DNA of 64,000 nt from the NCBI GenBank assembly GCA_009846685.1, contig VWVY01000001.1, positions 496,001 to 560,000 on the forward strand, read 5' to 3'. The notes under the pieces are model-generated. The model was not told where the DNA came from and searched no databases. It worked only from the letters and a program-made list of their open reading frames with translations. How positions within the stretch are numbered: position 1 is the stretch's first letter; each line of letters begins with the position of its first letter. A program made the position numbers and the translations under genes. Below are positions 49,371 through 53,940 of this stretch, piece after piece. The stretch is from Rhizobiales bacterium SYSU XM002. Lineage in GTDB: Bacteria > Pseudomonadota > Alphaproteobacteria > Rhizobiales > Beijerinckiaceae.

Positions 49371-49460
49371 GGATGGGTGGCCGAGTGGTTTAAGGCAGCG
49401 GTCTTGAAAACCGCCGTAGGTGCAAACCTACCGTGAGTTCGAATCTCACCCCATCCGCCA
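49371..49460 (+). tRNA. tRNA-Ser, anticodon UGA
   Basis: A 90-nt gene with encoded CCA. The acceptor arm is GGATGGG with CCCATCC, discriminator G. The anticodon stem GCGGT (49398-49402) and ACCGC (49410-49414) encloses loop CTTGAAA, with anticodon TGA at 49405-49407. A long variable arm (GTAGGTGCAAACCTAC) marks it as a class II tRNA, as expected for serine. The T arm contains GTTCGAATC. It reads UCA codons. Confidence 0.96.
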
Positions 49461-49531
49461 GATCCGCGGCACGACGAAACCCGCATCTTTCCTGCAACCG
49501 ACTCTGGGTCCTTGCAAGCATTCCGCGTGTC

Positions 49532-49566
49532 AAAAAAAAGGAATCGGGCGCGATGGAGCGCCCGAT
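49532..49566 (-). terminator. Intrinsic terminator on the minus strand, no recognised gene upstream
   Basis: ATCGGGCGC (49543-49551) pairs perfectly with GCGCCCGAT (49558-49566). On the plus strand an A-run (49532-49539) precedes it, so on the minus strand the 9-bp stem is followed by eight T residues, a textbook Rho-independent terminator. It points left, toward the tRNA. Nothing recognisable is transcribed leftward into it for 1.5 kb. It may end an unannotated small RNA, protect the tRNA from antisense transcription, or be a relic. Confidence 0.7.
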
Positions 49567-49575
49567 GTCATAAGC

Positions 49576-49605
49576 TTGTCGTTCCACCCGGCTCGAGGGT
49601 ATAAT
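49576..49605 (+). promoter_or_regulatory. Sigma-70 promoter for the tRNA-adjacent propeller gene
   Basis: TTGTCG (49576-49581), an 18-base spacer and TATAAT (49600-49605) form a near-consensus promoter, rare in this GC-rich sequence. A transcript would begin near 49612, which makes the ATG at 49618 almost leaderless and favours ATG 49696 as the translation start. Confidence 0.55.
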
Positions 49606-49695
49606 GTGAGCTGAAACATGAGGTTTCGGTCGCTTCGCTCCGCAGCTTCGTTCAATCCCGCTTCGAAATTGCGTTTTGTTGGGAACTGCTTCGGT

Positions 49696-51009
49696 ATGGA
49701 ATTGGCTTACACGGCGGACGATGCAGCCCGTATGGCTCTCGATCGCATCGGAAGAACTGAAGACATCCAGTTTTCGCCGAACGGCCGTCGCATTGCGATT
49801 GCGGTCGCTAATGAAGATCGAATTCTTGTTCTTTCGATCAACATGCAAGATGCCCTTGTCGGCGGTTCGATCATGCTGTCCGACCCCATCGACCTGCATT
49901 GCGCTGCCTTTGACTTCCCGCATGGTCTGTTCTGGATCGACGATCAAACGATCATTGTTGCGAACCGGAACGGTTTGGCGCCGATCATGGCCGTTCCCGA
50001 CTGCGGCGGGAAGAAACCAGCGGAACCGCTTCCGGTATCTCTGATGATCGGAGCCGAAGCAGTCGATCGCCTGATAACACCAGGGTCTGTCGCGGCGCGG
50101 CGCCTATTCGGACGAACCTATGAAGTTCTCATTTGCAACAACTACGTCCATAACGTGACGCGACATCTCGTCGAACTGGGCAAAAAACCTCGCGTGCTCA
50201 GCAGCGAAATGTTGCTGCGAGATACGCTGGAGATACCTGACGGCATCACTTTTGCCCAAGATGGCAGCTGGATCGCTGTGAGCAATCATCTGCAACATTG
50301 TGTGAATATCTACCGCAATTCCGATGATCTCGGGCCGGATGCCAAACCGGATGGCCGACTCACAGGGTGCCTCTATCCCCACGGCCTGCGTTTTACTCGG
50401 GATGACAACGCCATTTACGTCGCAGATGCAGGAACGCCTTACGTCCATCTCTACGTTTCAGAAGATGGCAGCTGGGCCGGTGACAGGGCACCAAGGAAGA
50501 CCTATCGCGTCATCGATGAGGAGACCTTCCGGTTGGGGCAAACCAACCCGCAGGAGGGCGGCCCCAAAGGCATCGATGTCCGCGGCAAGGACCAGATAAT
50601 GGTCGTTAGCTGCGAAAGGCAGCCGGTCGCATTCTTTAAACTCGATCAACTCGGAACCGATCATCACGGCGAACCCGTGGATGCCATTGGCCTTGCGGAG
50701 CATGAGGCGCCAGCCAAGACCGAGCGCGCCAAAACCGAGATCGAAATTCTTTACCGACAGATGCATCGGGCGAGGCAGGAAGGCAACGAGAGTCAGAGAC
50801 TTCTTGCGGAAGCGAATTCAGCGATGGGGGCGCTGCAGGAAGCCCATCACACTTTGTCTGACGCACACCACCGGCTGTCCAGAGCGCACCACGACCTGGC
50901 GACGGCGCACCACGAGTTGTCGCAGCGCCATCACGCTCTGCACCGGTCGAGCTCGTGGAAAACCGCAACGTCATTCATTGCAGCAATTGCACAGCGCTTT
51001 TCTCGATAG
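49696..51009 (+). CDS. Beta-propeller-like protein with histidine-heptad coiled-coil tail
   Basis: About 437 residues. The first 330 contain repeated strand patterns such as IQFSPNGRRIAIAV, IPDGITFAQDGSWIAVS and LYPHGLRFTRDDNAIYVADA, typical of an NHL/SMP-30-like propeller. The C-terminal part is a coiled coil ending in five near-perfect heptads of the form A-H-H-x-L-x-x (residues about 383-417), then SSSWK, like the S-x-S-W-R-x-T-A-P-L tails of surface-polysaccharide enzymes. No signal peptide is clear. Codons are A/T-richer than neighbours, and it follows a tRNA gene, both hinting at transfer. An upstream ATG at 49618 is possible. The function is unknown. Confidence 0.7.
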   Translation: MELAYTADDAARMALDRIGRTEDIQFSPNGRRIAIAVANEDRILVLSINMQDALVGGSIMLSDPIDLHCAAFDFPHGLFWIDDQTIIVANRNGLAPIMAVPDCGGKKPAEPLPVSLMIGAEAVDRLITPGSVAARRLFGRTYEVLICNNYVHNVTRHLVELGKKPRVLSSEMLLRDTLEIPDGITFAQDGSWIAVSNHLQHCVNIYRNSDDLGPDAKPDGRLTGCLYPHGLRFTRDDNAIYVADAGTPYVHLYVSEDGSWAGDRAPRKTYRVIDEETFRLGQTNPQEGGPKGIDVRGKDQIMVVSCERQPVAFFKLDQLGTDHHGEPVDAIGLAEHEAPAKTERAKTEIEILYRQMHRARQEGNESQRLLAEANSAMGALQEAHHTLSDAHHRLSRAHHDLATAHHELSQRHHALHRSSSWKTATSFIAAIAQRFSR

Positions 51010-51096
51010 GAATGCGGTAATCGCCCCGGCAGCAAGCCCGGGCCAAATTGCAGACGGACAAGCACTCTTGAGCGTCTTGCCCCGCAGCACAGCGCC

Positions 51097-52005
51097 TCAC
51101 GCCACGTGCGGCATGTCGAACAGCATGAAATCGCCTTCGCTCATCGTGCGGGAAAGCGTGACGCGGTTGCGCCCGGCTGACTTCGCGGCGTAGAGCGCGA
51201 TATCGGCCTCCTTGAGCGCCTTGTCGAACCCATCCGAAGCCTTCTTCTGCGCAACGCCGATGCTGGCGGTCACGTCGAGCGGACCGTTAGCGGTTTCGAA
51301 CGGCGTCGAGGCGATCGCGCGGCGAAGGGCTTCGGCTTTTTCGGCGGCGGCGGGAAGACCGCCCCTTACCAGCAGGCCGAATTCTTCCCCGCCAAGCCGC
51401 GCGAAGCCCTTGTCCACTTCGACCGCGCGTCGACCGATCTCGCGCAGCACATCGTCGCCAACCTCGTGGCCGTTCGTATCGTTGATGCGCTTGAAATGAT
51501 CAACGTCGAGCACGATGACGGAAAATGGCCCCTCTTCGAACAGGCATCCGTCCAGTTCCTCGAAGAACGAACGGCGGTTGCGCAACCCTGTCAGGCTGTC
51601 AAAGGAGGCAAGGCGAATCAGGTCGCGATGGGCGGAAAGCAGGCGGCCGGCAGCACGCAGGCGGGCGAGCAGTTCGCTCTTGCGCGGCGGTGAATTGATA
51701 AAGTCGTCGGCTCCGGAATCGAGCGCCTCGACAAGCTTCGCCTCGTCGCGCGAAGTCGACATCACGATCACATAGAGCGGGTTGCCCTGACTCGCGATCA
51801 GGCGCGCCTCCCAGCACAGTTCGAAACCGGACATCGTAGGAAATTCGATTGCCGTGATCAGCACGTCGAACGGCTGGCCCGCGCGGAGGATCTGGATGGC
51901 GACTGCACCGTCCTCGGCAAGGATGACCTCGTGATTGTCTTCCTGCAGGATGGACGCAACGAGCGCTCGTTCCTCGGCACTCGGGTCGGCAACCAGAACA
52001 CGCAT
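51097..52005 (-). CDS. Diguanylate cyclase with degenerate receiver domain
   Basis: A 302-residue protein. Residues 1-120 form a receiver-like domain, but the phospho-acceptor position is Ala52 (LITAIEFPTMSG), the acidic pair is broken (ADPS) and the conserved lysine is Ser105. Residues 135-290 form a GGDEF domain with SFDSLTGLRNRR, DVDHFKRINDTNGH and an intact GGEEF at 205-209, so it should make cyclic di-GMP. The RxxD inhibitory site before GGEEF is not present. ATG 52005 has GGGAGAG upstream. Confidence 0.88.
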   Translation of the reverse strand: MRVLVADPSAEERALVASILQEDNHEVILAEDGAVAIQILRAGQPFDVLITAIEFPTMSGFELCWEARLIASQGNPLYVIVMSTSRDEAKLVEALDSGADDFINSPPRKSELLARLRAAGRLLSAHRDLIRLASFDSLTGLRNRRSFFEELDGCLFEEGPFSVIVLDVDHFKRINDTNGHEVGDDVLREIGRRAVEVDKGFARLGGEEFGLLVRGGLPAAAEKAEALRRAIASTPFETANGPLDVTASIGVAQKKASDGFDKALKEADIALYAAKSAGRNRVTLSRTMSEGDFMLFDMPHVA

Positions 52006-52152
52006 CAAACTCTCCCGCAGGCCCAACGCAGCGTGATTATCACCCTTTTCAAACTGAATGGTTTCAAACCGTCGGCGGATCAAAACTGCGGTTAAAAAAC
52101 TGCGAATGCGTAAAGATCGACCGAGTTTTCCCGCACAGGTTGTTTTTCCAAC

Positions 52153-53940
52153 TCAGGTTTCCTTGGCCTTCAAGCCACGCGTCTCCGCTTTCCCGGCGGC
52201 GCGGGCGGCAATCTGAAGAGCGCTGCGGAATTCATCCCGTTTTTCGTGAACGGACGCGATGACGAGCCCCATCGGCACGCCGATATCGACCAGCGCCGCC
52301 TCGGAAAGCTGGAGACTGGCCTCGATCGTTTCCGGTACGGCATCGGTTACGCCGATCGCGTAGAGATGGCGCGCGTGGACGGCGTCGCGGGCACGGGCGA
52401 CGATCGTGACGTCCGGCCTGACGGCGCGGACCTGTTCAACCACGGCATCGATTGCACTCTGGGTGTGGATCGTGATGATGACAGCTGAGGCTTCCTCGAC
52501 CCCGCAAGCATGGAGGAAAGCAGGGTTGGTTGCGTCGCCGAAATAAACGTCCGCGCCCCCCTTCCGCTCGCGCGCAACCGCCGCAGCATCATGATCGGTC
52601 GCGATATAGGGAATAGCGTGACGCGCGAGCATCGCGCAGACAACCTGCCCTACCCGCCCATGCCCGACGACGATGGCGTGGCCGCGCTGGACTGTCGGCT
52701 TCGCCTCCGTTTCCGGATCGGGCGCCTTGCGACCCGCCATGAAGGCATCAAAACGCCGCGCCACGTTCCCCATCAACGGGATCAGGACCATCGTGAGTGA
52801 GGTAACCGCCAGCAGGAAACTCGCGACATCGCCGGGAACGATCTTCACCACGACCGCGGCGCCGATGGCCACAAACGCAAATTCACCGCCGGGCGCGAGC
52901 AGCAGGGCGGATTCGATCGTCGCCGCCAGCGGGAGGCGGAACAACCGACCGAGCGCGACCATGACACTGGCCTTGAGCGCCATCAGTGTCGCCACGGCAC
53001 CAAGAAGCAACAGCGGTTGGCGCATCACCTCGCGCAAATCGATGTTCATGCCGACCGTGAAGAAAAAAAGGCCGAGCAGCAGCCCCTTGAAGGGTTCCAC
53101 GATCCCCTCGATCGCCTTCTTGTATTCGGTTTCAGAGAGCATCAACCCGGCGACGAACGCGCCGAGTGCCATCGAAAGTCCAGCGGCGGCGGCGGCAACG
53201 CCGGTCCCCACGATCACGAACAGGATCGCGGCGACGAACAACTCGGTCGATTGCGCGAGTGCAACCAAGCGGAACAGCGGCCGGAGCAGCAACCGCCCGA
53301 AGATGACGATGCCGGCGAGCGCGATTCCGGTCTGGGTCATGGCGATGCCCAGGCTCGTCATCAGATCGTGCTGGCCATTGCCACCGAGAATGGAAACCAG
53401 CAGCAGGATCGGCACCACCGCGAGATCTTGCGCCAGCAAAACCGAAAAGATCGCGCGACCGGAACTCGTGCGCATCCGCCCTTGCGCCGAAAGGATCTCG
53501 ATGACGATCGCCGTCGACGACAGGGCCAGCGCGGCACCGATCACGATCGCCGAGGAAGGCCCCTGCCCGACTGCCCGGGCGATCGCCGCGATCAGGATGG
53601 TTGAGGCGAGAACCTGCGCCATGCCGAGACCGAAAACCAGTCGGCGCATGGTCACAAGGCGGGAATAGGAGAGTTCAAGGCCGATCAGGAAGAGCAGGAA
53701 CACGATGCCGAGTTCGGCGATGGCAGCAACGTTCTTCGCGTCCGTCACCGTCAGCCAGAACAGCGCCGGCACCTCGCGGATGAAGGAGCCAAGCCCGAGC
53801 GGGCCGAGGATCGCGCCCGCGCCAAGATAGCCGAGCACCGGCGAGATGCCCCAGCGCCGGACGAGCGGCACCACCACCGCCGCTGTGCCGAGCACGACCA
53901 GCGCGTCGCTGTAGGCATAGATATTGACCTCGGCGGCCAA
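52153..53940 (-). CDS. KefB-type CPA2 cation:proton antiporter with TrkA-N domain
   Basis: A 595-residue protein. The first 390 residues hold about 12 membrane helices of a Na+/H+ exchanger domain (GYLGAGAILGPLGLG, LLFLIGLELS, LSSTAIVIEIL, GALALSST). A cytoplasmic Rossmann TrkA-N (RCK) domain follows with VVGHGRVGQVVCAML and FGDATNPAFLHACG. It probably effluxes K+ under control of NAD(H) or glutathione adducts. The KefF/KefG ancillary subunit is not adjacent, although KefF-like flavodoxin-fold reductases occur at 58,365 and 61,113. Confidence 0.92.
   Translation of the reverse strand: MAAEVNIYAYSDALVVLGTAAVVVPLVRRWGISPVLGYLGAGAILGPLGLGSFIREVPALFWLTVTDAKNVAAIAELGIVFLLFLIGLELSYSRLVTMRRLVFGLGMAQVLASTILIAAIARAVGQGPSSAIVIGAALALSSTAIVIEILSAQGRMRTSSGRAIFSVLLAQDLAVVPILLLVSILGGNGQHDLMTSLGIAMTQTGIALAGIVIFGRLLLRPLFRLVALAQSTELFVAAILFVIVGTGVAAAAAGLSMALGAFVAGLMLSETEYKKAIEGIVEPFKGLLLGLFFFTVGMNIDLREVMRQPLLLLGAVATLMALKASVMVALGRLFRLPLAATIESALLLAPGGEFAFVAIGAAVVVKIVPGDVASFLLAVTSLTMVLIPLMGNVARRFDAFMAGRKAPDPETEAKPTVQRGHAIVVGHGRVGQVVCAMLARHAIPYIATDHDAAAVARERKGGADVYFGDATNPAFLHACGVEEASAVIITIHTQSAIDAVVEQVRAVRPDVTIVARARDAVHARHLYAIGVTDAVPETIEASLQLSEAALVDIGVPMGLVIASVHEKRDEFRSALQIAARAAGKAETRGLKAKET

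Follow-up and report, generated by a model that had tools for sequence, protein, structure and literature searches.

The window analysed here is a stretch of 64,000 nucleotides, in which a gene lying downstream of a tRNA-Ser gene encodes a protein of four consecutive parts (Table 1). The open reading frame and its histidine heptads lie exactly where the preliminary description of this DNA had placed them. The propeller head and coiled-coil stalk that it had proposed are likewise borne out, as predictions, by an AlphaFold2 model.

Table 1. Features of the propeller gene and its immediate surroundings (positions in the window)
Feature	Position	Strand	Basis or remark
tRNA-Ser(TGA), neighbour outside the system	49371..49460	+	
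Promoter-like site TTGTCG-18-TATAAT	49576..49605	+	Roughly chance expectation for the region
Coding sequence, 437 aa: propeller, linker, coiled coil, tail	49696..51009	+	
Beta-propeller, residues 1-320	49696..50655	+	AlphaFold2 mean pLDDT 91.6, pTM 0.91; conservation over ten homologues
Low-confidence linker, residues 321-341	50656..50718	+	pLDDT below 50; poorly conserved
Single predicted helix, residues 342-417, coiled coil	50719..50946	+	DSSP on AlphaFold2 model; heptad phase
Five HH heptads, four common to all relatives, fifth variable; first His probably in the core ('a'), with Leu at 'd'	50842..50946	+	
Basic amphipathic tail SSSWKTATSFIAAIAQRFSR, helix 422-436	50947..51006	+	AlphaFold2 model

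A further ATG at 49,618, upstream of that at 49,696, also lies in the open frame. In three relatives from the same genus, AGGAG-type ribosome-binding sites stand just 5' of the aligned ATG, and 49,696 is therefore the likely start. Inspection of the protein by eye reveals no signal peptide, from which we infer a cytoplasmic location. The interval that separates the tRNA from the propeller gene contains, on the minus strand, a hairpin that resembles a terminator and has a T-run (49543-49566); no convincing minus-strand gene ends near it.

The propeller gene starts about 235 bases after the tRNA-Ser(TGA) gene, an adjacency that had been pointed out earlier. However, the genus relatives keep the gene at a different locus, beside an MFS transporter gene, and in one of them (G015) the same tRNA directly adjoins an antiporter gene, whereas the order in the window is propeller gene, GGDEF gene and antiporter. 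The tRNA neighbour thus means little and is incidental. A tRNA island was also considered and rejected, since the tRNA-Ser gene and the adjoining rlpA recur across the genus while the propeller gene does not, and no direct repeat of the tRNA occurs within the 4 kb examined. The stretch 3' of the tRNA (49460-52153) is a variable site between species of the genus, with the antiporter as immediate neighbour in G015 and different genes in others. As had been noted earlier, the gene is A/T-richer than its surroundings, with a GC3 of 0.62 against 0.71-0.84 in nine neighbours. The lower GC3, taken with the copies of the relatives at another locus and the gene order in G015, suggests that the gene may be a later arrival at this site than the genes around it. 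A plasmid or viral origin was rejected, as neither the plasmid nor the viral collections hold a homologue.

The five heptads read, in order, AHHTLSD, AHHRLSR, AHHDLAT, AHHELSQ and RHHALHR, and keep a perfect seven-residue register. When the 82-residue tail region was shuffled 100,000 times, the longest in-register HH run was three (18 shuffles) and five was never reached; the HH heptads are not due to chance. Their 21-base units differ in sequence and codons and Tandem Repeats Finder reports no array at this place, so the pattern is one of the protein and not of a recent DNA expansion. Poor conservation among orthologues, which the preliminary description had named as grounds for giving up its reading, is not what we observe. 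Four HH heptads stand at identical columns in each of the three relatives (from G012, G013 and G015), whose proteins share about 50% overall identity with that of the window; one of them retains the fifth heptad, one has it changed and one has lost it. In the order sample, none of the other 397 genomes carries heptads of HHxL type. Among the HH-heptad matches listed for viral contigs, those inspected mainly look like alternative-frame or low-complexity sequence and were set aside.

All eight shared histidine columns are invariant between the window protein and its three relatives. Both CAT and CAC are present in seven of these eight columns, which requires at least seven substitutions, all of them silent. 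Depending on the transition bias, the neutral probability of silent-only changes is about 2e-7 to 3e-5 (at most about 3e-5 for a bias up to 4), in a test on four sequences of which three are close. Because the columns are invariant despite this synonymous turnover, the histidine pairs are, to judge from their codons, under purifying selection. Measured from the window copy, the heptads and the propeller alike have a dN of about 0.41, against 1.1-1.3 for the linker; the synonymous distance to the other copies is saturated, so the conservation is long-term. The positions next to the conserved histidines vary. Since related species keep them, the histidines are probably functional, and their role would most likely lie in the assembly or switching of the protein. 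This conservation lifts the heptads above a mere curiosity.

In the AlphaFold2 model the stalk is an uninterrupted helix of 76 residues. When each of the seven possible phases is extended into the 42 residues upstream, the one that sets the first His at 'a' and Leu at 'd' has the highest mean hydrophobicity in all four proteins, 1.0-1.9 against 0.2-0.8 in the next best phase. The first histidine of each pair is therefore probably located in the core of the coiled coil, with the second at 'b'. The paired histidines had earlier been described as a stripe on the surface of the helix; the phase does not favour this, and the stalk looks like a histidine-leucine zipper instead.

A heptad coil directly preceding a C-terminal tail recurs on other proteins. 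Two distant homologues (L015 and L075) consist of a propeller, Ala-rich heptads (AKQAEAR) without histidine and an SRSWR[IL]TAPLR end. The earlier likeness of the tail to those of surface-polysaccharide enzymes is clear in these two homologues, but in the window protein, where the coil also directly precedes the tail, the sequence reads SSSWKTATSF and matches SWR[IL]TxPLR loosely. Its Trp is absent at the aligned position of the three nearest relatives, the tail sequence is poorly conserved, and the basic amphipathic character alone is kept. It is possible that the window tail is a relict of the SWR[IL]TAPLR tail. In another genome (G694), a coil plus the same SWR-type tail is carried by two proteins, one a methyltransferase and the other sulfotransferase-like, the latter without a Pfam match and assigned by its P-loop-like start. 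Since the same combination is attached to different heads, it behaves as an attachable module, and from these sequences it looks like a reusable one with many heads of surface-glycan type. Heptad coils followed by a C-terminal SxSWR[IL]TxPLR were located in a sulfotransferase (L075:2857-3798), a methyltransferase (L072:424-1599) and a sulfotransferase-like protein (L074:1473-2816). Within the genome from which the window comes, the tail pattern occurs once, in a 92-residue frame that is unlikely to be a gene and was discarded. Our literature search found no paper naming the SxSWR[IL]TxPLR motif.

Clear homologues of the propeller protein are rare and scattered. They are present in four of 17 genomes of the genus, in one more among the 397 genomes of the family sample, in a few more of the order sample of 398 (three apparent remnants included) and in Devosia enhydra. 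The remnants (L017, 1501-1827; L018; L019) come from one other genus, two with several stops and one a short frame with a single stop; the propeller gene appears to be decaying there. Three further hits of the order sample (L021-L023) were rejected, as they fall within long frames, rich in His, Arg and Asp, that are not homologous and look antisense. Three homologues (L010, L013 and L016) have a propeller but lack any coiled coil, so the head can function on its own.

Some of these distant homologues lie next to sulfotransferase or glycosyltransferase genes. Two sulfotransferase-like genes flank L075, one of them with its own coil and STSWRITAPLR tail; L015 and L016 adjoin glycosyltransferase-like genes and L010 adjoins a sulfotransferase. 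A polysaccharide cluster is absent around the gene in the window and in the three genus relatives. The link to surface polysaccharides thus holds for the family and not for the window locus. Two of the relatives encode, not far from the propeller, a DUF4214 protein whose C-terminus is RTX-like (L004:3300-4268 and L005:19-876).

The AlphaFold2 model of the head was built from an alignment of ten sequences, and the pLDDT of 91.6 and pTM of 0.91 refer to the propeller alone. It reveals six blades, counted by hand as strand groups, with the N-terminal strand (residues 5-7) closing the last. The polar residues E22/D23, H76, S131, D182, H229 and K291 are invariant or near-invariant over the ten homologues and form one set per blade, each at the start of the first strand. 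That the architecture belongs to no recognised family, as had been stated earlier, agrees with our searches: nothing in Pfam, NCBIfam, PHROGs or PADLOC scores above cut-off for the window protein, and we found no paper describing it or its family. A WD40 or NHL repeat model does not exceed its cut-off in most blades, a single NHL stretch being found below threshold. Foldseek gives TM values of about 0.5-0.6 to seven-bladed WD40 proteins. No solved structural relative emerged, as sequence and fold comparisons returned generic propeller matches only.

We propose that the gene encodes a cytoplasmic propeller protein for a glycan-type ligand, which is conditionally oligomeric through its His-Leu coiled coil and is held by its tail on the membrane or on partners. 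We favour this reading tentatively, at slightly less than an even chance. Counting against it are the lack of a polysaccharide cluster around the gene in the window and in the genus relatives, the homologues that have no coil, and the poor conservation of the tail sequence. The polar, conserved central face of the propeller makes the binding or processing of a small ligand probable, and the most plausible candidate would be a sugar, or a derivative of one, from the metabolism of surface glycans. The coiled-coil stalk would turn the head into an oligomer. In its last four to five layers, with His at 'a', Leu at 'd' and a second His at 'b', the assembly would become weaker and conditional, as a stack of histidines in the core might be loosened by protonation or locked by a bound divalent metal. 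Designed three-stranded coils with His at 'a', which hold Zn or Co by three histidines (PMC13262294), speak for this part of the proposal. The basic amphipathic tail would then hold the oligomer at the inner membrane or on partner enzymes. For the window protein itself, we infer its oligomerisation, its membrane contact and the identity of its ligand; switching by metal or pH through the histidine layers is a more speculative element of the proposal. Its boldest form, in which a natural His-Leu zipper of four to five consecutive core His layers acts as a proton- or metal-operated clamp and so controls how a propeller protein active in surface-glycan metabolism oligomerises, is rather unlikely in our judgement.

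A simpler possibility is that the heptads only spread or oligomerise the propellers, as a plain structural stalk in which histidine is tolerated and has no metal- or pH-related role. The distant homologues with Ala-rich heptads in the same place, and the other heptads that precede the same tail in unrelated proteins, are what such a stalk would look like. However, strict retention of eight histidine positions under synonymous turnover, beside neighbours that vary, is not expected of tolerated residues, and histidine in the core is unfavourable as a generic stalk residue. We consider a purely structural stalk somewhat unlikely.

Designed peptides have been the subject of much work on histidine in coiled-coil cores. 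In a designed three-stranded coil, one layer of His at 'a' forms a His3 site for Zn or Co (PMC13262294), and the eight to ten conserved, in-register histidines of the window protein, on one helix or several, could bind Zn, Ni, Cu or haem as the main task of the protein, in storage, buffering or metal sensing. However, none of the possible partner residues Cys, Asp and Glu is fixed at those columns, the aligned neighbour genes are not metal genes, and the His-rich runs of other relatives are mostly irregular and of HDH type rather than HHxL heptads. Metal binding as the main function of the stripe is improbable.

In SMP-30, paraoxonase and similar enzymes, metal ligands are located at blade starts. 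An enzyme of this group, with the catalytic head as its primary part and the histidine stalk as an accessory, would fit the six blades with a conserved polar residue at each start, the weak matches of some other family members to the SGL, Arylesterase and Lactonase models (best 2e-6) and a weak profile match of the window protein to an SGL-like protein of the same genome (L002), but it is very improbable given that the window protein matches neither SGL nor Arylesterase and passes no Pfam gathering score, and that both sequence and fold searches favour NHL/WD40-type propellers, although with no close match. At the SMP-30-type Glu/Asn/Asp ligand positions, by an equivalence drawn by eye with a shifted profile alignment, E22 fits and the others are H76, S131, D182, H229 and K291, so that the presumed Asn/Asp ligands are replaced by residues such as Asp, His and Lys. 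As these residues appear to be of other types, and the window protein stays below the cut-off of every curated model, we do not file it under SMP-30/paraoxonase.

The conditionally oligomeric glycan-ligand propeller, which we prefer, belongs to an uncharacterised family that is patchy across the order. The ties of this family to sulfotransferases and glycosyltransferases in some genomes make it a candidate component of surface-glycan synthesis. If true, four to five successive layers of core histidine, conserved in a natural protein, would provide a test case for cellular pH or metal switches.

With the SMP-30/gluconolactonase/paraoxonase and NHL-type propellers the protein shares six predicted blades and polar blade-start residues around the centre. 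However, it falls below the cut-off of every model, apparently carries other residues at the presumed metal-ligand positions and has an added coiled coil and tail. The SxSWR[IL]TxPLR-tailed proteins (L072, L074 and L075) are likewise composed of a globular head, a heptad coil and a short basic Trp tail at the C-terminus, whereas the window protein combines a propeller head and HH heptads with a loosely matching tail, and its nearest relatives lack the tail match. The closest parallel for the stalk itself is the de novo three-stranded coils (PMC13262294), which likewise are heptad coils with histidine in the core at 'a' and leucine at 'd'. The design cited contains one His layer, while the natural protein of the window would have four to five in succession.
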